Positions 17,917-39,303 of a stretch of DNA of 39,303 nt are shown here, in pieces. The notes under the pieces were generated by a model. It searched no databases and was not told the DNA's origin. It worked only from the letters and a program-made list of their open reading frames with translations. A program made the translations under genes and the position numbers. Every line of letters begins with the position of its first letter. Position 1 is the stretch's first letter. The stretch comes from Lachnospiraceae bacterium (GTDB lineage: Bacteria > Bacillota > Clostridia > Lachnospirales > Lachnospiraceae), in NCBI GenBank assembly GCA_014804785.1, contig JAAUZD010000032.1, positions 94,827 to 134,129 on the forward strand, written 5' to 3'.

Positions 17917-18204
17917 GTGGAAGATAAGAAAGTATATGTTGAAATACCAGAGTTTACTGGCGAGAATGTTCCGGTTGCAGTAGCCGCTAGGGTAATGCGC
18001 AAGGATAAACAGTTTGTGAGGCAGGGAATCATACAAGGTTTGCTGGATTTTGGCATTGCATTCAAAAAGGAAGGGTGCGATCAGTACGACTACTACATAT
18101 CTCCGCTGAAATTTTGGAAAGAAACAGGATATATTTATAAAGGTGAAAGCGTAGAACAGGAGGAACGGTATGGCGGAACGAAGAAAGGATGTAAAAGGAC
18201 GTAA
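17917..18204 (+). CDS. excisionase-like protein next to integrase
   Basis: This 95-residue protein starts at GTG 17917 after AAAGGAG. It carries VPVAVAARVMRKDKQFVRQG followed by IIQGLLDFGIAFKKEG and QYDYYISPLKFWKETGYIYK. That is the pattern of small proteins encoded just upstream of tyrosine integrases in Clostridial prophages and likely to act as directionality factors. It overlaps the integrase start by 35 bases, which implies translational coupling. Confidence 0.7.
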   Translation: MEDKKVYVEIPEFTGENVPVAVAARVMRKDKQFVRQGIIQGLLDFGIAFKKEGCDQYDYYISPLKFWKETGYIYKGESVEQEERYGGTKKGCKRT

Positions 18205-23687: not shown

Positions 23688-23960
23688 TCATAATCCAAAT
23701 AAATCAGAGTGTGTGCCGGTACGATAAAGCAAAAGCTCATTTTCTTCTTGTTTGTATATTAGTAACCAGTCCGGTTCTATATGACATTCACGATAACCGA
23801 AATAATTACCACTAAGTGCATGATCCTTATTTTTGACCGGGAGCGTGTCTGGAATTCGTAAGGTGTCAATCGCTTGCTGTAATAGAGGCATTTTGTTGTT
23901 GCGCTTTACACAGGTTTTGAAGTCCTTTTTGAATTTAGTGGAGTATCGTATATTGAGCAT
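23688..23960 (-). CDS. yafQ: YafQ-type mRNA interferase toxin
   Basis: This 90-residue RelE/ParE-superfamily toxin cleaves mRNA on the ribosome. The E. coli YafQ catalytic pattern is complete: H47 (HALSGNYFGYRECH), H60, D64-W65 (IEPDWLLIY), H84 (TGTHSDLF) and F88. The length matches the family. The antitoxin gene lies 3 bases upstream, and a GGAGG site sits in the antitoxin end. The pair is probably autoregulated. Confidence 0.93.
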   Translation of the reverse strand: MLNIRYSTKFKKDFKTCVKRNNKMPLLQQAIDTLRIPDTLPVKNKDHALSGNYFGYRECHIEPDWLLIYKQEENELLLYRTGTHSDLFGL

Positions 23961-24888: not shown

Positions 24889-24987
24889 ACTACTTTTACC
24901 CTTTCTTTCCTTATGAAATCGTAAGGTTAAATTCACCGGATTGTAAGCTGTCTCTGCTATCATGTGAAGCAAGGAGGGTATTACAAT

Positions 24988-25443
24988 ATGGAATTATTGA
25001 AAGTGGAAAATCTATGTAAGACTTACGGAAAAGGCGAAGCAAAAGTAGATGCCTTAAAAAATGTATTGTTTTGTCTTGAGAAGGGCGAATTTACTGCCGT
25101 TGTCGGAGAATCAGGCTCTGGCAAAAGTACCCTGCTAAACTGTGTAGGGGCATTGGATGTGCCTACTTCCGGCTCTGTTTTTATTGCAGGACAGAATCAT
25201 TATCTTAAGCTTGTTCCCATATCTGCCAAAATTCATCACAAGCAAAGTAAAATGACTCGTATATGTATTACCCTTATAAGTGTATTATCAATATCAAACC
25301 TTATACTGCCATTGTCTGCTGTTTTCAGGTGGGCTTTGCCTTATATGGCAACGGGCCTGGTGCTTTCAAATTATGCACATAATGAAGAGGTTGTCTATTT
25401 ACCATTATTAAGTCTGGGAATACTTATTGTTATTTTGATTTGA
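24988..25443 (+). pseudogene. ABC ATPase N-terminal half fused to permease-like residue
   Basis: After AAGGAGGG, ATG 24988 opens a BceA/LolD-type ATPase (LLKVENLCKTYGKGEAKVDA, Walker A VVGESGSGKST, DVPTSGSVFIAGQ). After about 70 residues it changes to unrelated hydrophobic sequence (PISAKIHHKQSKMTRICI, then two membrane segments). No Q-loop, signature or Walker B follows, so it cannot hydrolyse ATP alone. The missing half is found at 32074-32544. The PISAKIHHKQSKMTR part resembles the start of FtsX-type permeases. Confidence 0.75.
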
Positions 25444-25490
25444 TCTTTGATTCTACTCAAAATATTCGATGGAAAGCGGAATTTCTAGAT

Positions 25491-25544
25491 TTCACACCAA
25501 CTTCACACAGATTTCACATGGGCTTCAATTTGTTTTTCTATTCT
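25491..25544 (+). promoter_or_regulatory. response-regulator operator and promoter of the CotH operon
   Basis: Four TTCA(C) repeats begin at 25491, 25502, 25513 and 25524, an exact 11-base period. TATTCT at 25539-25544 is the probable -10. The array replaces a -35 box, as in promoters activated by OmpR-type regulators. The same array with the same 48-base offset precedes the ABC operon at 37289. The rest of the 176-base gap shows nothing else. Confidence 0.75.
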
Positions 25545-25619
25545 TACTCCATCAAAAGGGAAGGAATAGGAAAAAGATGTGGATATTTATAAAAGTATAA
25601 GATATAAGGGAAATCCAAG

Positions 25620-28070
25620 ATGAAAAGAATAATAAGAATTGCAGTTCTTGCTACATCTGTAATAATAGGACTCTATCTGACAGGTTGTCTGGGACAAACA
25701 GTAAGATATTCAGAATGTGTAGTCAGTAAGGCGCGGGCAGATGAAATTATTTTGGAGCGCGAAGAGGCAGTATGCTTAATAGAGAATCTTATTTTTGGTG
25801 AAGAAACGCTTTTTTATGATGATTCCGAAGGAACATTTTATTATTCCCTCATAGAAGGGGATGATGACGTTTATGACCCCTGTATCAAAATAGAAAGTGC
25901 AATAAACGATCTGAAAATAGCATTTTTAGAGGATGAGATTACCGCTCAGGGAATAAAAAGTAATGAGACGATATCATTTCTTGCCTATACCGATGAAGTT
26001 TACTGTACATATCATTTGAAATGTACAACTTTGCCGCTTATGAATATACAATGTTCAGAGGAAATTCTGCATGATTCCGTTCCTATGAAAATGACACTTT
26101 TTGATAACAGTGTAAATGCGGTGAGAAGGCTTGTATATTCGGGGGGAGAGATTCGCCTGAGGGGCGCCACGTCAATAGAATACGCCAAAAAAGGATTTCG
26201 TTTTTCCTTAAGGACAGAATCAGTTGGAGGCAGTGTACGCCCAAACCATATATCTCTTCTGAATATGCGTCAGGATGATGATTGGCTGTTGTATTCGGCC
26301 TATAATGACCAGGAAAAGATAAGAAATGTTTTTTCTTCCAATCTCTGGAAATATACTTGCGCAGCAGATAATGCACAAGGAATAGATTTTGGTATGGAAT
26401 ATAAATATCTGGAGCTTTTTATAAATGGCAGATATTGGGGGCTGTATGCATTAGGATATCCTATTGATGAAAAGCAGGTATGTATAGACGCAAACAGTAA
26501 TGATGCTATTTTATATAAGCATGGTCTGCTTGGAAAGCAGGGACGTGAAAGTCTCCAATTCACAAAGGAAGGGAATATATTTAATTATTTAGAAGAATCA
26601 CCGGATGAAAATATACGGAATCAGTCCTTTTTACAGCGTTATTATTATAACTTGTATGTTAATGCGGATAATAATGAAAAGCTGTATTCCGGTATTGATA
26701 TGGATAATGCAACAGACTTTTACCTGTTTATCAATTTGGTACAGGGGGAGGATAATGTAGATCTTGTCAAGAATTACTTCATTTTGCTTCAAAATGAGAA
26801 AGAAGGTGCAAAAGCTTTTTATGCTCCCTGGGATTTGGATCTTACATGGGGAAATCAATATATCGGAGTACCATCTCATAATTATACTTATTCATATGCA
26901 CATTCGGAGGATTTTAATTGTGTCATAAAAAGTGGATATATTAGCCAGTTAATAATAAATGGAGATGCCTCCACATGGGAAATGATATTTGAAAAATACC
27001 GCACCTTAAGAGAAGACAAATGGTCCAAAGACAATATCAATTCGCTGCTGGATAAATATGAAGCTGATATTTTCGCTTCCGGTGCCTATCTAAGAGATAT
27101 GGAACGGTGGCCGGATGGAACATACGGAAGTGCTGCAGATGGTTTAGATCTCTTTCGCGCTTATGTCATGAACCGTTTGCAAGAAGCGGATTTATACTAT
27201 GAACGTCTTGAAACTGCTTATTATGAAAATTCCAATATTTTTATCCGACGCAGCATGCAATATAAGGATCTTTTTGAACATAGTTTTATAATAGAAATAA
27301 ACAACCATGATTTATTATTGGATTCTGACTATTCTGACTTTTTGGAATATATAGGGGTGGATGTTTCTGCTATTACGGAAGATATTCACTTTATACTGGT
27401 TAATCCGGCAGAAAAAAAAGCCGAATATCTACCGATGCTTTATGAAGAGGAGGAGCCAAGAGAAACCTGTATAGGCAAACTCTCTTTTACGAAACTGAGG
27501 GAAGGCTTATATGATGTAAAGGTAAATGGAGTTGAGAGTTATAATACATCAATTTTTTCGGTCCCTGAAATTGATATGGCAATCATAAAAGGCAAAGAGA
27601 GATACCGCTTTAATTTTACAAAGGGGTATGATATGCAAAAGCAGAGTAATAGTTTTGATGAACTTACCTTTTATGTAGAAGCGCTATCTGGCACAAATTA
27701 CCGGGCCGTGATAGAAATCAATAATCTAATGTTATGGCAGAATGCTGGCTATATTGCATTGTTTGAAAGATTAGGGATAACACAAGAAAATTTCCACATG
27801 AATACAGATTTTATTGTATGGAATGGTTTAGAAAAGACGGCATTTACGCTGGACGATTTTCACACTTCCGGCAGCAGTTGTGATACACAGTACGGTTCCC
27901 TGAGTGTATTTGAAAATGAACTGGGTGAATATGGAGTTTATCTGGATGGCAGAGAATGCTTTGTCAGTTCTTCGGATAAAAATCATAATGTGGATATTCG
28001 TATTGTGTTATTAGATCCAGAATCGTATGAAATAGCTGATATGATAACTTTTTCAGATGATCTGTGGTAA
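25620..28070 (+). CDS. CotH-kinase-family lipoprotein with duplicated C-terminal domain
   Basis: This 816-residue protein has a lipobox (GLYLTGC, Cys 23), so it is probably anchored outside the membrane. The CotH core (about 150-530) shows GGEIRLRGATSIEYAKKGFR, WLLYSAYNDQEKIRNVF, YLELFINGRYWGLYALGYPI and the metal-binding FYAPWDLDLTWGNQ (401-413). The usual RGNST reads RGATS. CotH proteins are atypical kinases that phosphorylate secreted proteins. After the core come two similar domains of about 100 residues (557-656 and 697-798), each beginning IEINN. It is first in an operon with VTC and DUF4956 genes. An 11-base-repeat operator lies upstream. Confidence 0.88.
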   Translation: MKRIIRIAVLATSVIIGLYLTGCLGQTVRYSECVVSKARADEIILEREEAVCLIENLIFGEETLFYDDSEGTFYYSLIEGDDDVYDPCIKIESAINDLKIAFLEDEITAQGIKSNETISFLAYTDEVYCTYHLKCTTLPLMNIQCSEEILHDSVPMKMTLFDNSVNAVRRLVYSGGEIRLRGATSIEYAKKGFRFSLRTESVGGSVRPNHISLLNMRQDDDWLLYSAYNDQEKIRNVFSSNLWKYTCAADNAQGIDFGMEYKYLELFINGRYWGLYALGYPIDEKQVCIDANSNDAILYKHGLLGKQGRESLQFTKEGNIFNYLEESPDENIRNQSFLQRYYYNLYVNADNNEKLYSGIDMDNATDFYLFINLVQGEDNVDLVKNYFILLQNEKEGAKAFYAPWDLDLTWGNQYIGVPSHNYTYSYAHSEDFNCVIKSGYISQLIINGDASTWEMIFEKYRTLREDKWSKDNINSLLDKYEADIFASGAYLRDMERWPDGTYGSAADGLDLFRAYVMNRLQEADLYYERLETAYYENSNIFIRRSMQYKDLFEHSFIIEINNHDLLLDSDYSDFLEYIGVDVSAITEDIHFILVNPAEKKAEYLPMLYEEEEPRETCIGKLSFTKLREGLYDVKVNGVESYNTSIFSVPEIDMAIIKGKERYRFNFTKGYDMQKQSNSFDELTFYVEALSGTNYRAVIEINNLMLWQNAGYIALFERLGITQENFHMNTDFIVWNGLEKTAFTLDDFHTSGSSCDTQYGSLSVFENELGEYGVYLDGRECFVSSSDKNHNVDIRIVLLDPESYEIADMITFSDDLW

Positions 28071-28088
28071 TAAAGGAGGTGGAAAGTT

Positions 28089-28787
28089 ATAAAAAAATAC
28101 AGAAATGAGTGGAAGTATTGTTGCAGTGCAAATGATATCAGTATAATAAGCAACCGTCTGTCTGCGATTCTTGCTCAAGATATTCACAGTGATGATAATG
28201 GGAAATATGAAATTCATACACTTTATTTTGATGATTATAAAAATTCCTGTGCAAAAGAAAATGATGCCGGCATATCAAAGCGTTTCAAGTATCGGATCCG
28301 GTACTATGGAAATCAGTATGAATATATGAAACTGGAATGCAAGGAGAAGATAAACGGTTACTGTCATAAAGAAAGTTGTCTGATTTCTTTGCGGGAATAT
28401 CAGATGATAATGGAAGAAAAGACGAACGAATTGATCTGGGAGACAGAAAAACCTTTGTTAAAGCGTTTTTGCACCAGTTGTATGACGAGACGATTTACGC
28501 CTAAAGTGATTATTGATTATGAGAGAACCGCATATATTGAGGATATCACCAATATACGTATCACTTTGGATGGGAATATTTCTGTTTCTGATGATTTTTC
28601 TCATTTTCTGGATGGCAATTATATGCGATATCCAGTTCAGGAGAAAGGACAGTATATTCTGGAGGTTAAATTTGACTATATTATGCCGAGCTATATAAGG
28701 CATATTATCACAAACCGGAAGTTGGTTCTTTCTTCTTTTTCCAAGTATTGTGCTGGAAGAAAAAAAATACAGAGTATGAGGAGATAA
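28089..28787 (+). CDS. VTC-domain polyphosphate-polymerase-like protein with apparent ATA start
   Basis: VTC domains form a basic tunnel that makes polyphosphate from ATP. This protein of about 232 residues shows KKYRNEWKYCC, YEIHTLYFDDY, KRFKYRIRYYG, MKLECKEKINGYCHKE, RFTPKVIIDYERTAY and YILEVKFDYIMPS, covering the whole domain. The N-terminal strand is coded from 28089, where the codon is ATA, placed 6 bases after AAAGGAGGTGG. No ATG, GTG or TTG occurs in frame until ATG 28326, which would lose a third of the domain. I infer initiation at ATA, or a start lost by G-to-A change. Confidence 0.8.
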   Translation: MKKYRNEWKYCCSANDISIISNRLSAILAQDIHSDDNGKYEIHTLYFDDYKNSCAKENDAGISKRFKYRIRYYGNQYEYMKLECKEKINGYCHKESCLISLREYQMIMEEKTNELIWETEKPLLKRFCTSCMTRRFTPKVIIDYERTAYIEDITNIRITLDGNISVSDDFSHFLDGNYMRYPVQEKGQYILEVKFDYIMPSYIRHIITNRKLVLSSFSKYCAGRKKIQSMRR

Positions 28788-28788
28788 A

Positions 28789-29457
28789 ATGGATACTATT
28801 AAAACTGCTTTAGAAAATATATTGAATGCCTATAATAATTCTATACTAAATACATCGGTTATTATTGCCGTACTGTTCGCTGTGCTTATATTAAGTATAT
28901 ATGAATTTCTGGTTTACAGAATAGTTTCGCATCGGGCGTTTTATAATCGGTCATTTAATACGTGTATTGCAATTCTGCCGTTTTTTATTTCTACGATTAT
29001 TTTGTGTCTGCAGTCCAATATCGTCATTACATTAGGGACAATAGGCGCACTGGCAATTATCCGTTTCAGAACAGCGGTGAAAGATCCAGTGGACATGTTA
29101 TATCTCCTATGGTCGATCCATATAGGAATAACCTGTGGGTGTCAACTTTATGAGGTGGCAGTTCTGACATCTCTTATCGTAACGATCCTGTTGATTGTGC
29201 TGGAACATATTTCAATCGGAAAGAAACCCTTTGTGCTAGTGTTGAATTGCTCTCCGGAAGACGAGGAACAGGTTCTGGAAAAGATTGGCGAACAGACCAA
29301 AAAATTTAGGGTAAAGAGCAGGAATTTTACGGATAAAGGTTTAGATATGGTGGTGGAGTTGTCTGTCAAATATCCTAAAAAAACTTCAGAGTCTATCAGA
29401 ATGGTAAAATCTGTGGAAAAACTTTCTATCATAGACTATGACTGTGATGATATTTAA
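28789..29457 (+). CDS. DUF4956 integral membrane protein
   Basis: This 222-residue protein has three or four membrane segments (TSVIIAVLFAVLILSIYEFL, CIAILPFFISTIILCL, VLTSLIVTILLIVLEHISIG). The conserved LGTIGALAIIRFRTAVKDPV-D motif lies between them, and a cytoplasmic C-terminal domain of about 75 residues follows. DUF4956 genes recur beside VTC and CotH genes and are thought to form a membrane platform for the polymerase; this is context knowledge, not biochemistry. It starts one base after the VTC stop with GAGGAG, so it is co-translated. Confidence 0.9.
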   Translation: MDTIKTALENILNAYNNSILNTSVIIAVLFAVLILSIYEFLVYRIVSHRAFYNRSFNTCIAILPFFISTIILCLQSNIVITLGTIGALAIIRFRTAVKDPVDMLYLLWSIHIGITCGCQLYEVAVLTSLIVTILLIVLEHISIGKKPFVLVLNCSPEDEEQVLEKIGEQTKKFRVKSRNFTDKGLDMVVELSVKYPKKTSESIRMVKSVEKLSIIDYDCDDI

Positions 29458-29489
29458 GCACATATTTGAAAAATGGAGAAGTGTGAGTA

Positions 29490-30029
29490 ATGAACAAAAT
29501 TCTGATTATAGATAATGATAAATCTCTTTTGGATTTGCTGCAAAACTGCATGCATGACCCAGAACTTTTGATTTTGGACGAACCGATTAACGGTCTTGAC
29601 CCGATCGGAATTGCAGAAGTACGTTCCTTTATCCGAGCTCTCTGCAATGAACGGGGAAAAACAATTTTGATTTCCAGCCATATCCTCTCCGAGATTGCAC
29701 TTTTGGCAGATGATATAGGTATTATTGACCACGGAGTATTACTGGAAGAAGAAAGTCTTGCAGAACTGGAAGCAAAGAACAGCAAATATATCCGATTTAT
29801 CGTTTCTGATACGGCACAGGCGGCAAGAATTTTAGAACGGATCTTCCATGAAAACCAATTTACCATACAGGACGATCACAATATACAAGTGCATAATCTT
29901 GATTTACCAATAGGAAAAATTATTACTGCATTTGTAGAAAATAGCTTGGAAGTATCGGAAGCCCATACATGTGAAGAAAGCCTTGAAGATTACTTCAAGC
30001 GTGTAACAGGGGGTGAGGGGATTGCTTGA
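29490..30029 (+). pseudogene. response regulator start fused to ABC ATPase C-terminal half
   Basis: Residues 1-21 (MNKILIIDNDKSLLDLLQNC) are the beginning of an OmpR-type receiver. From residue 22 the sequence is the C-terminal half of a lantibiotic-type ABC ATPase (Walker B ELLILDEPINGLDP, H-loop ILISSHILSEIALLADD). Walker A, Q-loop and signature are absent, as is the phospho-acceptor region. A deletion near 29553 probably joined two genes of one regulator-kinase-ABC cluster. The frame is open, so a stable 179-residue product may be made, but it cannot be a working ATPase. Confidence 0.8.
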
Positions 30030-30807
30030 ACTGATAATTTGCGAATTTGCTAAATTAAAGCGGAAAAAGCTTATTTTACTCGTTATGCTTTCCGCATTTA
30101 TATTTCCTATACCTGTTACAGTGATGATGACGACACCGCAAATGGCAGGGAGATTTGACAATGATATTGAAATTTTTAACGCTTGCTTCCAGTTTATTAT
30201 GGGATATGGTGTGGAATTGCTTTTGCCCTGTGTGATTGGAGTTATAGCTGCTGTGTTGTTTTTTATGGAACGGGATAATGACACATTTAAAAATTTGCGC
30301 ACAATTCCTGTGACAAGCTCACAAATGATTTTTGCGAAAATCATTGTTCTATTTATTATGGGTGTTATTTTCAGCCTGGTCTCGGCTTTGGCGGCGGTTT
30401 TATGCGGAAGTCTGGTATCCGAGGTAAACGGAGTTGCCTATAAACTGTTCGTAGCATTGGAAATGGGTATTTTTATCACTGCCGGGACGCTGCCTTTGGT
30501 CGTCCTTGTTGTTTTCTTTAGTAAGACCTACATTTTTTCCGTTCTGTTATGTGTTTTTTACAGCGTTTTAAGTCTGACAGCAGAATCTTCCTTTGGCGTA
30601 TTGCCGAAAGCCTTATGCTGGCTCATGCCAATTCCTCTTACGACACTTTGGAGTGCGGGCGATATGGCGAGGCATGGGGTGATAGAGAGTGTGGGAATGC
30701 TTGAATATCTGCAGCCTACAACCTTTCAAACAATCGCCATCCTGGGTGTCTGGGCTATCGTTTCAGTCATAGTCATTGATCATCTGTATAAAAAGAGGGG
30801 GGAATAA
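30013..30807 (+). CDS. lantibiotic-type ABC permease (EpiE/MutE-like)
   Basis: This 264-residue ABC-2-type permease has about six membrane segments (LILLVMLSAFIFPIPVTVMM, VELLLPCVIGVIAAVLFF, IIVLFIMGVIFSLVSALA). The cytoplasmic loop FMERDNDTFKNLRTIPVTSSQMIFAKII is typical of EpiE/MutE/GsiE-like immunity exporters. It overlaps the fused ATPase frame by 17 bases. GTG 30013 is the likely start because MRGLLELI matches family starts. It looks intact but lacks a complete ATPase nearby. Confidence 0.85.
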   Translation: MRGLLELIICEFAKLKRKKLILLVMLSAFIFPIPVTVMMTTPQMAGRFDNDIEIFNACFQFIMGYGVELLLPCVIGVIAAVLFFMERDNDTFKNLRTIPVTSSQMIFAKIIVLFIMGVIFSLVSALAAVLCGSLVSEVNGVAYKLFVALEMGIFITAGTLPLVVLVVFFSKTYIFSVLLCVFYSVLSLTAESSFGVLPKALCWLMPIPLTTLWSAGDMARHGVIESVGMLEYLQPTTFQTIAILGVWAIVSVIVIDHLYKKRGE

Positions 30808-30808
30808 T

Positions 30809-31591
30809 ATGTTTTGTATGGTTAGAACTGAAATTTGGAAACTGAAACGCTATCATATAATATGGGCAGGCGTTTTTCTGATGCTGCTTTCCGTTTTATT
30901 GACATTGTTTTCCACTACGGCATTGGACGGTACTATTTGGACATTCTCCCATTTTACGGAGCAGGTACTTAAAAATAATATTACAATGATTTTTCCTATG
31001 TGCATTACTTTACTTGCCGGATATATCATAGCAAGGGAAGAAAGGGATGATACACTGAAAAGTATTATGACGGTTCCTGTTTCTTACCGCAATTTATTAT
31101 GGGGGAAATTATTTGTCTGTGCTTTGTTGTCCCTGTTTTTAGGATTTGTAAGTGCTGTATTTACAATTATTGCGAATTTGATAATGGGATTTCCGGGACT
31201 TTCTATAACATCAGTATTACAGACATTTATTCAGTTTATTTTGAACTGCCTGTTTCTATATATTGCTGTGATGCCGGTAATAGCAGTAACTACTCGCATA
31301 GCGGGCGGACATATGATAGGTACAATCATTGCATTTGCATATGGATATGGGGGAATGTTTGCTGCAGGGAATATGACACTTGCCAATATCTATCCAATTA
31401 CAGCGAGCATGGGACTGATACAGTACCGAAGCTATGATGAAGCTGTTCACTGGAATGTTGGACTATGTGGGTTGAGCATGATTGCGGCTTTACTGGTTTC
31501 TGTGGTTATTGTGATAACAACAAAAAATGTTTTGCCAGCAAGAACAGTTAAGAAGCAGAAAAAAATCATTACAAAAAAGGTTGGTAGATAA
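30809..31591 (+). CDS. second lantibiotic-type ABC permease (MutG/EpiG-like)
   Basis: This 260-residue membrane protein has six predicted segments and the paralogous loop (REERDDTLKSIMTVPVSYRN, LLWGKLFVCALLSLFLGFVS). It pairs with the preceding permease to form the membrane part of a lanthipeptide/bacitracin-type exporter. ATG 30809 follows AGAGGGGGG; an ATG at 30776 would lie inside the previous gene. It is followed after 12 bases by the YxeA-like gene. Confidence 0.85.
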   Translation: MFCMVRTEIWKLKRYHIIWAGVFLMLLSVLLTLFSTTALDGTIWTFSHFTEQVLKNNITMIFPMCITLLAGYIIAREERDDTLKSIMTVPVSYRNLLWGKLFVCALLSLFLGFVSAVFTIIANLIMGFPGLSITSVLQTFIQFILNCLFLYIAVMPVIAVTTRIAGGHMIGTIIAFAYGYGGMFAAGNMTLANIYPITASMGLIQYRSYDEAVHWNVGLCGLSMIAALLVSVVIVITTKNVLPARTVKKQKKIITKKVGR

Positions 31592-31603
31592 GGAGTTTTT
31601 CAC

Positions 31604-31972
31604 ATGAAAAAAGGAATATTGTTTGGAATTGGTGCGGTTGCTTTAGTGGTTGTATGTGTTTGCATTTTCTTTCTTTCAGAAGCAGGCAGCACATACTATT
31701 ATTCACAAATTGATAACAGTAAAATGGAACAGGCCGAATCAAGAGGGGGCGTAATTAACTTTAGCGGGAGTATGGATTACTCATACACTTTATTTTCTTA
31801 CAACGAGAACGGAAAGGGAAAAGATATTACATTCGGAACATCAAGAGAATTGAAAGAGGGGGATTTTATCCGATTAACAGTAATGCCAATCCGTGGTGTC
31901 CTTGAATGGAGTGAAGTACAGTATGATGAACTTCCGACGGCTGTTAAAGAACAATATACCGCCCCAAAGTGA
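31604..31972 (+). CDS. YxeA-family (DUF1093) exported protein
   Basis: This 122-residue protein has an N-terminal membrane or signal segment (GILFGIGAVALVVVCVCIFF). Its domain has the DUF1093 pattern: YYYSQID, MDYSYTLFSYNENGKGKDIT, ELKEGDFIRLTVMPIRGVLE, and EVQYDELP near the end. YxeA-type proteins often accompany lantibiotic/antimicrobial-peptide ABC transporters; their role is unclear. The ribosome site is AAGGAG. It is the last gene of the exporter cluster. Confidence 0.82.
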   Translation: MKKGILFGIGAVALVVVCVCIFFLSEAGSTYYYSQIDNSKMEQAESRGGVINFSGSMDYSYTLFSYNENGKGKDITFGTSRELKEGDFIRLTVMPIRGVLEWSEVQYDELPTAVKEQYTAPK

Positions 31973-32073
31973 TTTTCAATTTCGCCAACTTATACTATTT
32001 AGATATAAGGGGAAGTATCCTGTACAGATTGCTGTGTGTGTTGGTATACCGGATCAGGTATTGCAGTGTCAAG

Positions 32074-32544
32074 GTGAAAGGTAAGGAACTGGGCGAATTG
32101 AACGATGAGCAGCTTACCATTTTCCGCAGGCGCAACATCGGCTTTATCTTCCAGAATTACAACCTTGTCCCTGTCCTGAATGTCTATGAAAATATTGTCC
32201 TACCCATAGAACTGGACGGCGATACCGTAGACCAGAAATTCATGGATGAAGTCGTGCACATGCTGGCCCTGGGGGACAGGCTGAACAGTATGCCGGGTAA
32301 CCTGTCCGGCGGACAGCAGCAGCGTGTCGCCATTGCCCGTGCCTTAATTACCAAGCCTGCCATCGTTTTGGCTGATGAACCAACCGGTAACCTAGACAGC
32401 CGGACGAGCAGTAATGTACTGGGGCTTCTGAAAGCCACCAGCAAAAAATTCCATCAAACGCTGGTAATGATTACCCACAACAACGAAGTCGCCCAACTTG
32501 CCGACCGCATTGTTCGGATTGAAGATGGTAAAATCACGCAGTAA
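32074..32544 (+). pseudogene. ABC ATPase C-terminal half (no Walker A)
   Basis: The frame runs from about VKGKELGELNDEQLTIFRRR through the Q-loop ([20 protein letters not shown]), signature ([15 protein letters not shown]), Walker B ([14 protein letters not shown]) and H-loop (LVMITHNNEVA). This is the back half of a BceA/LolD-type ATPase. There is no start codon with a ribosome site and no Walker A. It begins almost exactly where the fragment at 24988 breaks off. An FtsX-type permease pseudogene follows, the normal order of BceAB-like exporters. Confidence 0.85.
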
Positions 32545-32557
32545 AGGGGACAAGAAC

Positions 32558-33597
32558 ATGAGTGATATTCTCTTTGGAAACAACAATACAAAAGTAATAA
32601 AAAACCTCTCAAAAAAGTATTTCAAGAAAAACAAGGTACGAAATGTTACTGCAATCCTGGCTATTACACTGACAGCATTTCTATTTACCTCAATCATCTC
32701 GCTCACATTTAACATGGCTTCTTCCTTGCAGCTTTCCATGTATATGCAAAAAGGAAGCAAGGCGGATGGTACACTGGGCTATATGACGGAAGAACAATAT
32801 AAGAAACTCGCCGGAAGCGATTTCATTCAGGAAGCGGGACACAGGCGCTTCCTTGCGTATGCCAGCAATTCAATTGGTCATTCGGTTGAAATCAACTATG
32901 CTGACAGCGTACAGCAGGAGTTAGCATTCTGCGCGCCAAGCCATGGAGCAGCGCCCCAAAAAGCGAATGAGATCACCACCACCGACCTTGCGCTCAGGGC
33001 GTTAGGTGTTGAAGCCTAAATTGGCGCTTCTGTTCCAGTAGAGTTTGAAGTGCGAGGCCAGACCTATCACTATGATATGGTGCTTTCCGGCTGGTGGGAG
33101 GCCAGCAACGATGCTGTCAGCCTGATGATTGTTTCAGAGCAGTTTGTAGAGGAAAATCCCGAATTATTCCAAAACACTTATGCAACGGACAGAGAAATGG
33201 CAGGAGTGACATTTTCTGATGTGGTGCTGAAAAACAAGGTGAAAATAAAAGGCCAGTTGGAAGATTTCGCACGCAGGGTCGGTGGCGACCCTGAAAACAT
33301 GGAGGCAGATAATTTTATCCTTTGCAGCGCAAATCAATGCTGAAAAAGATGTCAGTTATATCCGCAGTTTGATGAGCGATAACTATTTTCTGGTAGATTA
33401 TCGTGATAGGACTTCCGCTGAACAAGCTCATATTTGAAAGGTTTATCACTGCATATTTTGGTGAAGTATGGCGTGTACCAGTTGGAATGCTCATAATAAT
33501 TCTTCTTGTTATGTTTGGCGCTGCGGCAGTTGCAGTTCATACACCCGCGAAGCGTATGCGGAATATGGCAGTAACGGAAACAATCAATGAACTATAA
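32558..33597 (+). pseudogene. FtsX-type ABC permease, broken and internally deleted
   Basis: ATG 32558 (AAAGGGG upstream) opens a BceB-like permease: KVIKNLSKKYFKKNKVRNVT and the first membrane segment (AILAITLTAFLFTSIISLTF). TAA at 33017-33019 interrupts the frame (GVEA-stop-IGASVPVEFEVRGQTY). It continues to 33343, shifts frame (INAEKDVSYIRSLMSDNYFL), and ends with the family C-terminus (MLIIILLVMFGAAAVAVHTP-AKRM). Several hundred residues of the usual middle are missing. It is clearly non-functional. Confidence 0.85.
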
Positions 33598-33615
33598 GAA
33601 ATTGAAAAAAGAAAA

Positions 33616-33660
33616 TCTGCGGTATGAAAACAAGAAAAATCAGACCGCAGAGATATTTTT
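33616..33660 (+). terminator. hairpin after the permease pseudogene
   Basis: TCTGCGGT (33616-33623) pairs perfectly with ACCGCAGA (33644-33651), with GATATTTTT after it. Confidence 0.6.
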
Positions 33661-33699
33661 ACATCATTTTATTAGGAGGAGCTGTTATGCGGCACTTCT

Positions 33700-33942
33700 T
33701 TGGGACGTGACAGTGACAGCACACTGAAAGTGACTTATTCGCTCAGTATTCAATCGGGTACAGCAACATTATACTGGCTGGAAAGCGAAGAGGAACATGT
33801 TATTTCCGGGGAGAAAGTGAAATATGCTATTGCGGAAGTGACCGCTGCAGATGTCTGTGAATTTACAGTTGATGCCGGAGACAATTTTATTGTTCTTAAG
33901 GGGAATGATTTTACAGGGAGTCTGTCGTTAGAAATTGAATAG
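33700..33942 (+). pseudogene. small exported-protein fragment lacking its signal
   Basis: About 80 residues remain (STLKVTYSLSIQSGTATLYW, GEKVKYAIAEVTAADVCEFT, NFIVLKGNDFTGSLSLEIE), compactly beta-rich in look. Upstream in-frame residues ELLCGTSLGR resemble the end of a lipoprotein signal, but no start or full signal is left. The good AGGAGGAG site leads only to an ATG in another frame (MRHFFGT-stop). It is probably an accessory protein of a peptide-resistance ABC locus, now truncated. Confidence 0.55.
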
Positions 33943-33987
33943 CGTACACTTCTGTTCGGAGTGCCTGAAGCGTGTATTCTTTCCTAG

Positions 33988-34191
33988 TTGATCTACAAAG
34001 GAATGGTAGCCAGTGAACAGCTTGAGGGATTTGCGCATTATTTCCCGTGGAAAGGCATGACGGTCAGTATACTTGGTATATTTTGCATAGTTTTCGTTAC
34101 AATGCTGTATGCTATCTGTAAGGTCATGAAAGAAAATATTAATGATGCTCTAAGGGATGATATGGCTCAAAAAAATGTTAAGCAAGGGTAG
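33988..34191 (+). pseudogene. C-terminal fragment of an FtsX-type permease
   Basis: Sixty-odd residues (EQLEGFAHYFPWKGMTVSIL, GIFCIVFVTMLYAICKVMKE, NINDALRDDMA) match the last membrane segment and tail of a BceB/MacB-type permease. No start or upstream part is present. It belongs to a different permease from the 32558 pseudogene, whose own C-terminus is at 33597. Confidence 0.65.
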
Positions 34192-34273
34192 GAAGTTGCC
34201 GTTTGGAGAAATTATTTTATCATCATCCAGACAACCTGATAGTTTGGCTACATGATGGAAGAAGGAGGCTGTT

Positions 34274-35179
34274 ATGTGTCAATTTGCATTTCTTATATTT
34301 TTCATTTCATCCTGCATATTTGCAGGAATTATGCTGCATGACTCCAGAACATTATGGAGTGGAGCCTCTTTTTTGTTCATGATGATATGTCTGGCGGTCT
34401 ATTTATTATTTACAGTATCCCAATATTCAGAATGGTTGGCGGCGCATGATTTAGTAATCGGAATACTGATTGTTATGTTTATTTTGGCAATAGGCAGTGT
34501 TATTGCGTTTCCGGCAGTTTTGATTCTCATATTCTTTGTGGAAGGAATAAGGGTAATCAGGCATGAGGGTATAAAACCGGCAAATCTGTTGTCGCTGCTG
34601 GCGATGTATTCAATTTCCGCGGTGCTCAATCTTTTCCATCTGAGAAAGAAAAGAAATGTAGACTATATTGTTGTACTGGGAGCCGGGATTATTGGAAGCA
34701 AGGTTACGCCATTACTTGCGGCGCGGATTGAAAAAGGGATAGAATTGTTGCACTACAATCCAAATGCTGTACTGATCATGTCCGGTGGGCAAGATCCCGG
34801 AGAGGATATACCGGAAAGCAAAGCTATGGCAAATTATGCGGTTGATAAGGGCGTGGATACGGAGAAAATCATTATGGAACAGAAATCTGTATCCACACTG
34901 GAAAATCTGCGGTTTTCAAGGGAACTGATGAACATACAGAAACCTAAAATTATTGACGTCACGACTGCTTATCATGTGTTCAGAGCTTTAATACTTGCAA
35001 AGCAGCAGGAAATAAAATGTGTAGGTTTTGGTGCAAAAACAAAATGGTATTTTACGTTAAATGCTTTTATCCGTGAATTTATTGGTTATTTGAGGTTGAC
35101 ATGGAAGAGACATGCCCTTGTGATTGGGATAGTAGTGGTCGTAATAATAAGTTTTAATCTTGGAGGGCAAAAATATTGA
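34274..35179 (+). CDS. YdcF/SanA-type DUF218 membrane protein
   Basis: This 301-residue protein has four N-terminal membrane segments (about 1-120) and a DUF218 domain (about 130-265: VDYIVVLGAGIIGSKVTPLL, AVLIMSGGQDPGEDIPESKA, EQKSVSTLENLRFSRELM, TAYHVFRALILAKQ). One C-terminal membrane segment follows. The family (ElyC/SanA/YdcF) affects envelope metabolism and vancomycin tolerance in other bacteria; the substrate is uncertain. The start follows GAAGGAGGCTGTT. The gene is intact, unlike its left neighbours. Confidence 0.88.
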   Translation: MCQFAFLIFFISSCIFAGIMLHDSRTLWSGASFLFMMICLAVYLLFTVSQYSEWLAAHDLVIGILIVMFILAIGSVIAFPAVLILIFFVEGIRVIRHEGIKPANLLSLLAMYSISAVLNLFHLRKKRNVDYIVVLGAGIIGSKVTPLLAARIEKGIELLHYNPNAVLIMSGGQDPGEDIPESKAMANYAVDKGVDTEKIIMEQKSVSTLENLRFSRELMNIQKPKIIDVTTAYHVFRALILAKQQEIKCVGFGAKTKWYFTLNAFIREFIGYLRLTWKRHALVIGIVVVVIISFNLGGQKY

Positions 35180-35482
35180 ATACAAAGAGAAAATCATGTG
35201 CATTAATTTATTGTTATATGGAGTTTTGACCGTTTTGCTTCTTCTTTTAATCTTTTTCAGTATGCAAAAGTGAGCTTCAAGAACTGAAAGATGGTTTTAG
35301 AGAATAGATTAACGACTGGATAGGTTCTGTAAACCGGTAAGACCTATGAGACGTTTAAGGCGTGAAAGTTTGAAAGGAAAGCACTTATCCTGAATTATTC
35401 ATATAGTAGTTGTTGCTGGTGCATAGCACCGCATTAGAAAGCAATAAGTACATGAAAATAAATTTTAACGGAGGAACACACT
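35180..35482. other. 303-base gap with one tiny hydrophobic frame
   Basis: ATG 35196 to TGA 35273 encodes 25 residues, mostly Leu/Ile/Phe (INLLLYGVLTVLLLLLIFF), with only a weak ribosome site (AAAGAGA). It may be a relic of a membrane protein. The rest shows no gene and no clear promoter. ACGGAGGAAC at the end is the ribosome site of the response regulator. Confidence 0.35.
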
Positions 35483-36169
35483 ATGGCAAACATTCTGGTT
35501 GTTGAAGACGAAAAGAATATGCAGGAAATTATTGTTGAATATATGCAGCGGGGCGGCCATGTCTGTTATACGGCGGACGATGGCATGGATGCGCTGATGG
35601 TATTGAAGAGTCATCCGATGGATTTAATGATACTGGATATTATGATGCCTTTCCTCGATGGCTTTTCCGTCTGTAAAATGGCAAGGGAAATGAGCAATCT
35701 CCCTATTATCATGTTAACTTCTAAGGGAAGCGAGGATGATAAGCTGAAAGGCTATGATCTGGGGGCGGACGATTACATGACAAAACCATTCAGTCCTAAA
35801 GTGCTGCTCGCAAAAGCAAACGCCCTGCTGCGCCGTAATACTGCCATCTGGGCAGATACCGTAAGTACCGTTAACACTGTCAGCGGGGGAAAAATTTCGA
35901 TTATTCCTGCTTTACATAAAGTGTTTCTGGACGGGCAGGAAATTACCCTGACCTATAAAGAGTATGAATTGCTTTATTTTCTTATGTCAAATCCCGGACA
36001 GATTTTTACCAGAGAGCAGCTGCTTAACAGGATATGGGGATATGATTTTGAAGGGACGACGAGAACAGTGGACACACATATCAAAACGATTCGCCAAAAG
36101 CTAGGTGATGAGGGGAAACATATCGTAACGCTGATTCGTTCCGGTTACAAATTCGAGGTGACAGTATGA
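35483..36169 (+). CDS. OmpR/PhoB-family response regulator
   Basis: This 228-residue protein has a receiver domain with acidic pocket E8-D9, phospho-acceptor D52 (LMILDIMMP), a switch Thr in IIMLTS and K101 (DDYMTKPF). A winged-helix DNA-binding domain follows (about 128-228: ITLTYKEYELLYFLMSNPGQ, IFTREQLLNRIWGYDFEGTT, RTVDTHIKTIRQKLGD). It overlaps the kinase gene by 4 bases. Direct 11-base repeats, the usual target of this family, occur at 25491 and 37289, so it probably activates the CotH operon and the adjacent ABC operon. Confidence 0.95.
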   Translation: MANILVVEDEKNMQEIIVEYMQRGGHVCYTADDGMDALMVLKSHPMDLMILDIMMPFLDGFSVCKMAREMSNLPIIMLTSKGSEDDKLKGYDLGADDYMTKPFSPKVLLAKANALLRRNTAIWADTVSTVNTVSGGKISIIPALHKVFLDGQEITLTYKEYELLYFLMSNPGQIFTREQLLNRIWGYDFEGTTRTVDTHIKTIRQKLGDEGKHIVTLIRSGYKFEVTV

Positions 36170-37242
36170 AAATAAGTGATAATATGAATGTTTTTGGCAT
36201 CCGGAAGAAAATACTGTTGGCTTCTAAAATGATGGGTATTATCTTGGTAGTATCTTATGTGTTTTCTACCAGACTGCCCTTGAGTGCAGATATTTCTTTT
36301 GTAATCTGGCTGGTCTTTGTTGCCGTATTGATCTGTGGAATCGACTTATGGATGGCAAAATTTATTACAAAGCCTGTATCGGAGCTGAACGATGCCGCCC
36401 GGAGCATGGCAGATTTGGATTTTTCCAGGCCCTGCGGGGTGACAGGCCATGATGAATTTGGTGAGCTTTCCCGCAGTCTGAATCTTATGGCTGAAAGCCT
36501 GCAGGAAGCGTTTTCCAAATTGGAAAATGTGAACAGGAAGCTGGAGCAGGATGTGGAACAGAAAAAGCGTCTGCTGGCGGAACGGAAGGAACTGGTAGAC
36601 AACCTTTCCCATGAAATGAAGACCCCGTTGGGCGTGATCCGTGCTTATGCGGAAGGGGTGCAGGATGAAACAGACGATGCAAAAAAGCAAAATTACTACG
36701 AGGTCATCATAGCGGAAACGGAACGTATGAGCCGTCTGATCACTACCCTGCTTGATCTGTCCGCGCTGGAAAACGGAGCCACGCAGCTTCGCCCGGAACG
36801 TTTTGACTTTGTTGAATTTCTGGAAACCGTTGCTGGACGGCTGCTGATCGACAGCCCGGATGTCTGCTTTGATCTGCAATATGAATTGCCGGAGCAGCCT
36901 GTTTATGTCAATACGGACAAGAGCCGGATGGAGCAGGTACTGAATAACCTGATTGTCAATGCAAAGAGGAATGTCCGGCCGGGAGGTGTTTTGAAGCTGT
37001 TTTTAAAAGAGCGTGACGGTATGCTGGATTTTTCTATTTATAACCAAGGGCAGCCTATCCCACAGGAAAATCTTTCAAAAATCTGGACAAAATTTTATCG
37101 TGATAAAAATACAACATACAGCGGTTCTGGATTAGGGCTTGCGATCGTGGCGCAGATCCTTTCCATGCAGCATTTAGCGTATGGTGCTGCAAACCAGCAA
37201 GACGGAGTGGCATTCTATTTTTCCATTCCTGCTATAAAATAA
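36166..37242 (+). CDS. sensor histidine kinase with almost no extracellular domain
   Basis: The 358 residues comprise membrane segments at about 16-34 and 44-60 with a loop of some ten residues. HAMP follows (about 62-115, ITKPVSELNDAARSMADLDF), then a coiled coil, HisKA with H149 (VDNLSHEMKTPLGVIRAYAE), and the ATPase domain (N box VLNNLIVNAKRN, FYRDKN, G2 YSGSGLGLAIV). The small loop means it senses within the membrane or through a partner such as the downstream ABC transporter, as known for Bce-type kinases. It is translationally coupled to the regulator. Confidence 0.93.
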   Translation: MKISDNMNVFGIRKKILLASKMMGIILVVSYVFSTRLPLSADISFVIWLVFVAVLICGIDLWMAKFITKPVSELNDAARSMADLDFSRPCGVTGHDEFGELSRSLNLMAESLQEAFSKLENVNRKLEQDVEQKKRLLAERKELVDNLSHEMKTPLGVIRAYAEGVQDETDDAKKQNYYEVIIAETERMSRLITTLLDLSALENGATQLRPERFDFVEFLETVAGRLLIDSPDVCFDLQYELPEQPVYVNTDKSRMEQVLNNLIVNAKRNVRPGGVLKLFLKERDGMLDFSIYNQGQPIPQENLSKIWTKFYRDKNTTYSGSGLGLAIVAQILSMQHLAYGAANQQDGVAFYFSIPAIK

Positions 37243-37288
37243 AGATCAATCTCCCTAAAAGGCTTCCGTTTCTGAAAAGAAGAAAAAT

Positions 37289-37342
37289 TTCACATCAACT
37301 TCATATGGACTTCACATGGATTTCACCGCACTTTTCTATTCT
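37289..37342 (+). promoter_or_regulatory. response-regulator operator and promoter of the ABC operon
   Basis: TTCA(C/T) repeats begin at 37289, 37300, 37311 and 37322 (exact 11-base period), with TATTCT at 37337-37342. Repeat sequences, spacing and the following TACTTCATCAAGAGGGAAGG closely match 25491-25570. It lies just after the kinase gene, so the system controls its own downstream operon. Confidence 0.8.
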
Positions 37343-37392
37343 TACTTCATCAAGAGGGAAGGAATCTCTCTCAGAATAAGGAGGTATAGATT

Positions 37393-37545
37393 ATGTTTTT
37401 AGGTTTGGAATGGTACTTGTGGCTTGTGATTGTGGTGGTACTTATCATCGCTATCCCGTTCAAGGTAAAGTTTATGAAATGGTGGAGCAAACGTGAACAG
37501 GAAAAGAAAAAAGGACAGCATGGGAAATGGGGGGATGATGAATGA
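37393..37545 (+). CDS. 50-residue single-span membrane protein
   Basis: After AAGGAGG, ATG 37393 encodes one membrane helix (EWYLWLVIVVVLIIAIPF) and a strongly charged cytoplasmic tail (KWWSKREQEKKKGQHGKWGD). The stop overlaps the ATPase start by ATGA, so it is coupled to that gene. It is the first gene behind the operator. It may be an accessory subunit or sensor link of the transporter. I know no named family. Confidence 0.75.
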   Translation: MFLGLEWYLWLVIVVVLIIAIPFKVKFMKWWSKREQEKKKGQHGKWGDDE

Positions 37546-38390
37546 TTGAAGTAAAGAATCTGACTTTTTCCTATGGGAAAGACAAACAGGCATTACATGG
37601 TCTGAATTTCACTGTAGAAGATGGGGAAATCTTTGGATTCTTAGGGCCTAATGGTTCCGGGAAGTCTACAACCCAGAAAATATTGACCGGTATCCTGAAA
37701 GGGCATGGCGGTATGGTGTCCCTGTTCGGGAAAGAGTTAAGGAGCACACATACACAGGAGTTTTTTCAAAAGATCGGTGTCCTGTTTGAGTTCCCTTATC
37801 TGTATGCCAACTTGAGTGCCCTTGACAATCTGTATTATTTCTCATCGTTCTATCCGAAAGAACAACTGCGGGATGCGGAAGAAGTACTTGACGAACTGGA
37901 ATTTAAGAAGGATTTCTTGCGGAAACCGGTATCCTCCTACTCAAAAGGGATGCGTCAGCGTGTCAGTATGGCGAGGGCTTTGATCAGCAACCCGAAGCTC
38001 CTGTTTCTGGATGAACCTACCAGCGGGCTTGACCCTACCGGAGCAGTCCTTTTCCGTAGAATCATAGAAAGCGAGCGGCGGAAGGGAACAACGGTATTCG
38101 TGACGACCCACAATATGCTGGATGCTGACCTGCTCTGCGACAGAGTGGCTTTTATTTCCAATGGAAATATAGTTGCCCTTGATACACCAAAGAATCTGAA
38201 AGAGCAAAACAGCAACCACAGAATTGTTGTTGATTATCTGTATCAGGGCAGGCGGGAGGAAAAGACACTGGAAGCTCCAGAGTTGAAATCCGGGATCCCT
38301 TTTGTGTATGATGAACTGATCAGTGTTCATTCCCAGGAACCGACTTTGGAGGATATATTCATCCAGTATGCAGGAAGGAGGTTGTCATGA
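37542..38390 (+). CDS. ABC transporter ATP-binding protein
   Basis: This 282-residue ATPase is complete: Walker A (GPNGSGKST), Q-loop (IGVLFEFPYLY), signature (VSSYSKGMRQRVSMARAL; SKGMR type), Walker B (LLFLDEPTSGLDP) and H-loop (TTHNMLDADLL). A C-terminal extension of about 70 residues ends TLEDIFIQYAGRRLS. The type matches drug, bacitracin or fluoroquinolone exporters. It overlaps the permease gene by ATGA and shares the upstream operator. Confidence 0.95.
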   Translation: MIEVKNLTFSYGKDKQALHGLNFTVEDGEIFGFLGPNGSGKSTTQKILTGILKGHGGMVSLFGKELRSTHTQEFFQKIGVLFEFPYLYANLSALDNLYYFSSFYPKEQLRDAEEVLDELEFKKDFLRKPVSSYSKGMRQRVSMARALISNPKLLFLDEPTSGLDPTGAVLFRRIIESERRKGTTVFVTTHNMLDADLLCDRVAFISNGNIVALDTPKNLKEQNSNHRIVVDYLYQGRREEKTLEAPELKSGIPFVYDELISVHSQEPTLEDIFIQYAGRRLS

Positions 38391-39303
38391 GCTGGAAAAG
38401 CCTTTATTCTCTGTTTAAAAAAGATTGCCGGATGATGGCATCGGGGAAATTCTTTTTTGTGGCATTGGGGTCATTTCTGCTTTATACGTTGTTCATTAAC
38501 TTTGGCTATGTGAAATTTATGGATGCTAACGCCAATATCTACAATGTATACCTTTATGACCCGGCAGAAACTTTAGGACAGGTTTCCCCTCTTGTATATC
38601 AGGTAGACTCTCTGGAAGAATTAAATGAGGCGGTTTCTATGGATACAGCAGGCAGTGGTGTAGGGATCAGCATGATTGATGGCAGGCCGGATGTAATGCT
38701 GTACAGGGGAGCGGAACAAGCCGACTGCCATAGAGTGGATTATGCACTGTCCCTGCTTCACTGGACCGGAGAATATACACCGGAGACAGTAGGCAGCAAT
38801 ACTCTGGAAATGAAGCAGCGCAGAGAAATAACCTGTGAACTGCTGTTTATTGAGATTGTTGCCGTGGGTTTTTTAGGGATTGCCTCTGTGCTGTTTAAAG
38901 AAAAACAGATGGGCGTGATCCGTGTCCATGCCATTATGCCACTTCCGGGGAACTTGTTCCTGTTTTCCAAGATTTTTCTCTTTTTACTGACGGACTTGAT
39001 TTTTGCAGTACTGATGGCGTTGTTTAATGTTGGATTTGCCGGGGCAGGAAGCATTTTGCCTGCTGTACTGGTACAGACTGCGATCTTGTCCCTGATTATG
39101 GCACTTTCGGGTTTTGGATGTACGATGGTTTTTAAAGACTTTAAGCAATTTTCACTGGCCTACCTTGTGATCGCGCTTTTTGCGGCAACCCCTGTTTTTT
39201 TGTCAGCCAACACCTCAATTAAAATGGCATGGATTGACTATCATCCGTTTTACCATGTGTATATGGGACTGAAAAACGCATTTTTTGGTACGCCTGTTAC
39301 AAG
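38387..39303 (+). CDS. ABC-2-type permease (3' end outside window)
   Basis: ATG 38387 opens a frame with no stop to the window end (305 complete codons). A first membrane segment (FFFVALGSFLLYTLFINFGY) precedes an extracellular domain of about 120 residues (YDPAETLGQVSPLVYQVDS, SGVGISMIDGRPDVMLYRG). Further segments follow (LLFIEIVAVGFLGIASVLF, IFLFLLTDLIFAVLMALF, LAYLVIALFAATPVFL). The loop EKQMGVIRVHAIMPLPGN is typical of drug-export permeases. It forms the transporter with the preceding ATPase. Confidence 0.88.
   Translation, partial: MSWKSLYSLFKKDCRMMASGKFFFVALGSFLLYTLFINFGYVKFMDANANIYNVYLYDPAETLGQVSPLVYQVDSLEELNEAVSMDTAGSGVGISMIDGRPDVMLYRGAEQADCHRVDYALSLLHWTGEYTPETVGSNTLEMKQRREITCELLFIEIVAVGFLGIASVLFKEKQMGVIRVHAIMPLPGNLFLFSKIFLFLLTDLIFAVLMALFNVGFAGAGSILPAVLVQTAILSLIMALSGFGCTMVFKDFKQFSLAYLVIALFAATPVFLSANTSIKMAWIDYHPFYHVYMGLKNAFFGTPVT

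Follow-up and report, generated by a model that had tools for sequence, protein, structure and literature searches.

We analysed a 39,303-nucleotide stretch of a Lachnospiraceae bacterium genome (positions 94,827 to 134,129 of contig JAAUZD010000032.1, assembly GCA_014804785.1; hereafter the window), in which two tandem-repeat arrays separated by 11.8 kb precede two operons. Site A lies upstream of an operon for a CotH kinase-like protein, a VTC-domain protein and a DUF4956 membrane protein. Site B lies upstream of an operon for a small membrane protein and an ATP-binding cassette (ABC) exporter, which adjoins the genes for a response regulator (RR, starting at 35483) and a histidine kinase (HK, starting at 36166). 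Sequence comparison made it very probable that A and B are two operator-promoter copies of one two-component system and that the RR activates both operons. Because relatives carry the same switch at the transporter operon that belongs with this regulator, the CotH/VTC gene set is probably under the same regulator too, having been placed there by the second copy of the array.

Two homologous operator-promoters in the window

Direct reading of both sites revealed that the repeats of site A are TTCAC (25491), TTCAC (25502), TTCAC (25513) and TTCAA (25524), and that those of site B are TTCAC (37289), TTCAT (37300), TTCAC (37311) and TTCAC (37322). At each site three of the four repeats are perfect, and neither array is composed of four perfect TTCAC copies. 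The period is exactly 11 bp in both arrays, and the first repeat base is exactly 48 bases from the TATTCT of the -10 element. An earlier note on this DNA had described the repeats, their period and this distance, and had placed them before the CotH operon and the ABC operon next to the regulator; the coordinates, period and spacing read at both sites agreed with it. No TTGACA-like -35 element was seen in A or B, as ACATGG occupies the -35 place of each. The transcription starts (+1) are predicted at A25551 and A37349, respectively.

The similarity extended beyond the repeats. Self-BLAST of the window aligned 25489-25567 with 37287-37365 (81% over 79 bases, E = 3.5e-14), and an ungapped comparison gave 62/81 identical bases, compared with 41/81 at the next best place in the window, which is a register shift of site B, and 39/81 at the one after it. 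This homologous block of 79-81 bp begins 2 bases 5' of the first repeat, runs through the -10 element, as the earlier note had also held, and stops at GGAAT; in the 40 bases upstream only 14 match, and the flanks are unrelated. A three-repeat pattern with at most two mismatches matched the window five times, four times inside the arrays and once elsewhere, versus 0.33 expected in shuffled sequences. Within the 3.97-Mb genome, the four-repeat pattern without mismatches was found at A and B alone. With up to three mismatches it matched 21 places versus 6 for a reversed control, and the core promoter sequence at the same tolerance matched only A and B.

Site B is the conserved promoter of a clostridial module

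A search with a kinase alignment confirmed 584 relatives, and the best 80 of these 584 loci were used for the module counts. They belong mostly to Lachnospiraceae, and also to Oscillospiraceae, Clostridioides difficile, Alkalibaculum, Alkaliphilus and a Tissierellales metagenome-assembled genome. The module has the order RR, HK, array, 50-residue membrane protein and ABC exporter. Its ABC ATPase (at least 60% identity) was present in 68 of the 80 loci, and these 68 represent 63 distinct sequences; the 12 loci without it, some of which stop at a contig edge, were excluded from the array counts. An array scoring at least 16/20 was found within 900 bases upstream of the ATPase-holding module operon in all 68 loci, and one of at least 17/20 in 66, compared with 26 of 338 random 860-base windows of the same loci, which may overlap arrays, that reached 16/20. 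The geometry is equally fixed, with TANNNT at exactly position 49 in 67/68 of these promoters and an A at position 61 in 64/68. Additionally, 14 of the arrays of the genus that precede the small membrane protein and ABC genes, site B among them, aligned without gaps over 70 columns. Judged by this comparison, site B is the standard, ancestral and widespread promoter of a conserved clostridial module.

We then scored sequences on the 21 columns in which conservation among the 63 distinct promoters reaches 94% or more. Over the 78,484 positions of the window, both strands included, site A scored 21/21 and site B 20/21, and the next best place scored 16/21. Within the first 61 columns, 14 differences separate the two sites, of which one falls in a conserved column (Fisher p = 0.022).

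The array was found to accompany the ABC operon even where the RR and HK are distant. In genome G002 the ABC operon and its array lie 40 kb from the RR/HK genes on the same contig, and in G021 and G023 they are on other contigs. The kinase loci of G439, G463 and G464 lack ABC genes, and there the site precedes ABC genes in a stretch without RR/HK orthologues. The site thus travels with its target operon and need not adjoin the regulator. In two of the ATPase-less loci (L201 and L203) a contig edge follows just behind the array. At L245:4549, a 21/21 array behind the RR/HK genes is followed by an ABC ATPase that shares only 32% identity with that of the module, so that the switch is paired here with another transporter.

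Co-inheritance of site and regulator

A profile, R1, was built from 14 ABC-operon sites, including site B, with site A held out. In the genome of the window, R1 found site A (E = 8.7e-14) and site B (E = 4.8e-17), and the next match had E = 0.207. The genome scan for further copies that the earlier note had proposed thus yielded no third array, either with zero mismatches or as a strong profile match. The single regulon that it had postulated is strongly supported by the comparison, as the array is found at the ABC operon in 68/68 loci and the held-out site A is the only other strong R1 match.

Among 37 genomes of the genus, 14 contain an RR orthologue (75% identity or higher); a strong site (E < 1e-6) was present in 13 of these and in none of the 23 others (Fisher p = 3.9e-9), so that site and regulator are inherited together. 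Fourteen of the 16 strong sites in the genus are themselves R1 training sites; the remaining two are site A and, in G030, a site that precedes an exporter gene of the major facilitator superfamily (MFS).

R1 was also run, at E ≤ 1e-4 and with stricter filters, on 47 genomes reached via 50 of the 80 named loci, two of these genomes being reached twice and one locus not being covered. One site was found in 41 of them and more than one in 6; these counts are lower bounds because R1 missed a peptide-gene site in the genome of locus L222. The extra sites of G443, G449 and G465 belong to second copies of the ABC operon, with RR/HK genes alongside in G443 and G465, whereas in G449 just one of the two has them; one ATPase of G465 is split into two open reading frames (ORFs). 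The extra sites of G470 are consistent with its having two module loci (L227 and L248), and G436 contains two modules. In the R1 search of the order, the sites of G382, G322 and G216 precede the module's small membrane protein and ABC genes, and those of G329 and G108 do not.

The 21-column scan was extended to 2.77 million positions of the gathered loci, a biased set in which many loci were chosen for their kinase or array. It revealed 99 sites of at least 19/21 (86 distinct), of which 88 lie within 900 bases before the small membrane protein or ABC genes. The other 11 are site A, the C20 site described below, the MFS site (twice), two peptide sites, a copy in G464, and the sites of G108, L201, L203 and L245. 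This list is no unbiased background, because C20, G436 and G108 were picked for their arrays. At the L108 site (18/21) no ORF of at least 100 residues starts within 1.6 kb behind the array, so a site of this score with no gene after it exists.

The CotH operon and its homologues

The CotH, VTC and DUF4956 genes are adjacent, as in the accessory set of pel clusters, and the promoter scan listed no sigma-70 consensus match on the plus strand between site A and CotH. The 5' end of the VTC gene has no ATG, GTG or TTG codon; an ATA codon near 28089 follows a ribosome site and is the probable, non-standard start. The VTC homologue of G007 has ATT/ATA at the same start place, as read by eye.

Close CotH homologues (E ≤ 1e-80) were found in ten other genomes, namely G007, G020 and G015 of the genus and G119, G170, G178, G286, G376, G402 and G425 of an order sample of 392 genomes taken from a larger group. 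None of the ten has an R1 site (E ≤ 0.05 in the genus, E ≤ 1e-4 and stricter filters in the order sample). Likewise, no array was seen at the CotH genes of G007 (71% identity), G020 (52%) and G015 (45%) or at nine loci in the seven order genomes, and the best score overall was 16/20; for G178 and G286 the negative result rests on the whole-genome R1 search, since the locus ends no more than about 100 bases (estimated) from the operon start. Among the genomes examined, only this one therefore has the link between CotH/VTC and the operator. At more distant CotH loci of the genus (about 24-38% identity), the best score was 17/21 (L060) and the rest did not exceed 15; genomes with distant CotH genes only, some of which carry an ABC-operon site, were left out of the ten.

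Some features of the surroundings were also recorded. Several truncated ABC genes lie within 29.5-33.3 kb, and the ORF at 29490-30029 reads as a deletion hybrid, in which about 20 initial residues of a response regulator (by eye) are fused to the C-terminal portion of an ABC ATPase. Upstream of the CotH operon are a Tn916-type integrase gene (18170-19438) and a YafQ-like toxin gene (23688-23960), and this region may be a hot spot for accessory DNA. Inside the ORF at 21087-21992, at 21195-21400, a stretch of about 129 bases is directly repeated (85%) with an offset of 77 bases.

Accessory targets and the origin of site A

Besides CotH in the window, putative targets outside the ABC operon were found in other genomes. 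In G030 (L110:9392, minus strand; L169:3906, the same place), a 19/21 array with a -10 element TAACCT at position 49 precedes the MFS exporter gene adjoining the regulator. In G436 (L298:3285-3338), an array precedes a gene for a 42-residue peptide, which is followed by B12 radical S-adenosylmethionine (SAM) enzymes and a weakly PqqD-like protein; this cluster, which resembles those for ribosomally synthesised and post-translationally modified peptides (RiPPs), is probably in the regulon of this two-component family. At L222:2031-2084, an array precedes a 93% identical peptide, about 1 kb before its RR gene, and no radical SAM genes were seen in the stretch between the two. Both peptide sites match 20/21 columns and have the -10 element at position 49. 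We take CotH, the MFS exporter and the peptide gene (in G436 and the genome of L222) as the predicted accessory targets.

Two further sites are weaker candidates. In the window's own genome, a site at C20:16543-16579 (L106:8544; 19/21 columns, TAAACT at position 49) starts 82 bases before a VTC-DUF4956-Cthe_2159 operon, the middle gene of which is partly masked, has no Pfam match and aligns to the DUF4956 protein of the window. As a third site of this genome it is suggestive only; G035 has a near-identical copy, which adds little weight, as the sequences of the two stretches are almost the same. In G108, from another family of the order, a 19/21 array (L304:5067, minus strand) precedes a lipoprotein gene and permease-like genes (by eye) rather than the ABC module, and this lipoprotein gene is possibly an accessory target.

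Comparison with the ABC promoter of G030 bears on the age of site A. This promoter matches A at 66/81 bases and B at 66/81, and A and B match each other at 62/81. Site A is thus at least as close to the G030 promoter as to B, which makes it unlike a recent copy of B. The promoter duplication suggested in the earlier note therefore stands as far as the homology of the block is concerned. Site A may have been copied at about the time these species parted, may have come from a relative, or may have changed fast. It is best described as a homologous promoter block that was probably captured, and not as a very recent copy of B. The idea that A is the leftover of a lost second ABC module was rejected, since self-BLAST of the window revealed no module remnant beside it. 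In G464, a tandem duplication about 1 kb apart (L295:3664 and L295:4635) includes the promoter together with the beginning of the small ORF, a natural copying of the promoter block.

The regulator, kinase and exporter

The features of the window are collected in Table 1. The RR consists of a receiver domain (Response_reg, 8.4e-27) and a winged-helix output domain (Trans_reg_C, 4.6e-27). D52 is invariant in 14 orthologues and is, from its position, the presumed phospho-acceptor; the DNA-binding end TRTVDTHIKTxRxKL is nearly invariant in the same orthologues, in step with the operator. In the kinase, hydrophobic 17-residue windows start at residues 14-25 and 36-52 with little between them, a topology given by hydropathy. 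The exporter has two ABC-2 permeases, and its ATPase scored below the cut-offs of the lantibiotic-protection and DrrA families (galliderm_ABC, 161.5 vs 309.75; drrA, 218.7 vs 312.45).

Table 1. Features of the window, by position in the 39,303-nucleotide stretch.
Feature	Position	Strand	Basis
Site A, four tandem 11-bp repeats upstream of the CotH operon	25491..25528	+	direct reading; R1 profile; 21/21 conserved columns
Site B, four tandem 11-bp repeats, conserved promoter of the module	37289..37326	+	direct reading; alignment with relatives
Block homologous to 37287-37365 (array, spacer, -10, transcript start)	25489..25567	+	self-BLAST, ungapped comparison
Site A -10 element TATTCT	25539..25544	+	48 bases after array start; relatives' TANNNT at position 49
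Site B -10 element TATTCT	37337..37342	+	direct reading; relatives' TANNNT at position 49
CotH kinase-like protein, 816 aa	25620..28070	+	family search; full length against 71% identical G007 homologue
VTC domain (polyphosphate polymerase-like), full domain read from 28086	28086..28787	+	family search
DUF4956 membrane protein	28789..29457	+	residues 40-171 match profile positions 10-145 of 169
OmpR/PhoB-family response regulator, proposed activator of A and B	35483..36169	+	family search, orthologues
Sensor histidine kinase: two N-terminal hydrophobic segments, HAMP, HisKA, HATPase	36166..37242	+	family search, hydropathy
50-aa membrane protein, conserved in module, no Pfam/NCBIfam match	37393..37545	+	relatives' loci
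ABC exporter ATPase, DrrA-like below curated cut-off	37542..38390	+	family search
ABC-2 type permease, Pfam match below cut-off, runs off window	38387..39301	+	family search

Proposed mechanism and alternative explanations

In the mechanism that we propose, the kinase would phosphorylate the RR, and the phosphorylated RR would occupy the four 11-bp direct repeats in head-to-tail orientation, with two dimers probably lying along the same face of the DNA. The bound RR would replace a -35 element and bring RNA polymerase to the -10 box, whose distance from the start of the array is fixed at 48 bases. PhoB-type regulators bind in tandem, head to tail (PMC4415409), and by analogy with PhoB this arrangement, together with contact to RNA polymerase, is the likely mode here. 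The binding of the RR, the activating direction of its effect and the route by which site A was captured are inferred. Site B would drive the small membrane protein and the ABC exporter adjoining the regulator. In this lineage, a promoter block of about 80 bp would have come to lie upstream of the otherwise unrelated and intact CotH-VTC-DUF4956 operon, which the same signal would consequently induce. Given the exporter and the peptide targets, this signal is likely to be an envelope-active compound or peptide.

Several observations weigh against this interpretation. Site A is found in one genome only, and the CotH link is without comparative confirmation of its own. Direct repeats of 11 bp are general to the PhoB family, so another regulator of this genome could in principle read A. 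G013 has the RR and HK and no R1 site, in an assembly that is 59% complete, and weak R1 matches (E 3.8e-4 to 0.05) occur in 8 of the 23 genus genomes without the RR; of the genus matches with E between 1e-4 and 0.05, those in G003, G016, G022 and G034 were inspected. The sensitivity of R1 is also incomplete, as it missed the 20/21 site in the genome of L222 and the 19/21 C20 site.

A broader version of the proposal, which we regard as doubtful, would make the promoter a movable regulatory cassette of a peptide-sensing module that is copied as a block and brings the MFS exporter, the RiPP-like peptide and CotH-VTC-DUF4956 under one signal. The 42-residue peptide would then be, or become, the signal or substrate of the kinase and exporter, and VTC/DUF4956 genes would have been recruited twice in this genome, at A and at C20.

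It is unlikely that site A is a relic, a homologous block that is no longer selected, with CotH driven by another promoter or by none. The restriction of A to a single genome and the truncated ABC genes of the 29.5-33.3 kb neighbourhood would fit such decay. However, the 21 conserved columns of A and its -10 spacing are intact despite the 14 differences from B, the CotH and VTC genes are intact, and the plus strand between A and CotH has no listed sigma-70 match.

We considered it very unlikely that A and B are PHO boxes of a PhoP/PhoB phosphate regulator, with VTC as a Pho gene and the local RR incidental. The PHO box of S. coelicolor does consist of 11-nt direct repeats with the core GTTCACC (PMC4415409), the VTC domain is linked to polyphosphate, the best NCBIfam match of the RR is PhoB, and its closest solved relative by sequence is RegX3. 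Nevertheless, the RR scored 200.6 bits against the PhoB cut-off of 296.2 and so fails this equivalog threshold, and the array is linked to the RR/HK-ABC module. Its strong sites are at that module and at CotH, not at phosphate transport genes, and no PstS above the cut-off was found in this genome (other phosphate genes were not searched). A Na/Pi cotransporter gene (PF02690) in G003 and G016 (L166:5517; L167:5541, minus strand) is instead preceded by 11-bp repeats of the TTTACAT type, with the -10 element at the same distance; it lies near another two-component system, and these sites perhaps belong to another PhoB-like regulator with the same promoter geometry. One array (L027, in G034) that seemed to front pstS was rejected as such, since the gene reads by eye, with no family search, as another lipoprotein.

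An equally improbable alternative is that the arrays, which cover the -35 position, are repressor sites at which the RR silences both operons until a signal relieves it, since ACATGG in both promoters offers no -35 consensus to unaided polymerase and the constant distance from array to -10 (67/68) is what activator contact requires, whereas repressor sites are usually less fixed in position.

Comparison with known systems

The kind of operator is already known, being PhoB-like. The PHO box promoters of E. coli and Streptomyces share with sites A and B an OmpR/PhoB-family regulator and 11-nt direct repeats, with GTTCACC resembling TTCAC (PMC4415409). The sites described here differ in having four repeats, a -10 element at one fixed distance and an ABC exporter operon, in addition to an RR below the curated PhoB cut-off and no phosphate gene found behind the array.

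Peptide-sensing two-component/ABC resistance modules include LanRK-LanFEG, CprABCK-R and those of the Bce type. Like them, the present module combines an RR and a kinase, the loop of which may be short to judge by hydropathy, with an adjoining ABC exporter that has two ABC-2 permeases, and a RiPP-like peptide gene is a putative accessory target in two genomes. It differs in its ATPase, which is DrrA-like (below the cut-off) with a lower score against the lantibiotic-protection family, and in the conserved 50-residue membrane protein without a family match.

In Gram-positive pel clusters, CotH, a polyphosphate polymerase and DUF4956 are known together as accessory genes (PMC7112168); for C. perfringens, NELoc-2 is listed as having a VTC-CotH cluster (PMC2879425). 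The operon of the window shares CotH and VTC with both, and DUF4956 with the pel case. In contrast, its CotH-VTC genes stand under the putative operator of an unrelated two-component system, which is unmentioned for either cluster in the passages of PMC7112168 and PMC2879425 that deal with them. No pel genes (pelDEADAFG) were identified near the CotH operon in the window, where the scanned ORFs at 24964-35179 outside that operon are ABC, DUF1093 or DUF218 genes or belong to no family. In a limited literature search, we found no description of the module or of its link to CotH.

CotH-VTC-DUF4956 systems occur in many genomes, and we know of no trigger for them. Here, the promoter connects such a system with one particular kinase and exporter, the signal of which can be screened. 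Because the operator of the module's regulator is strict and easily recognised across Clostridia, its targets may be read from genomes. The putative capture of operons by this operator in four genomes (those of the window, G030, G436 and L222) would make the growth of a regulon through promoter capture accessible to study.

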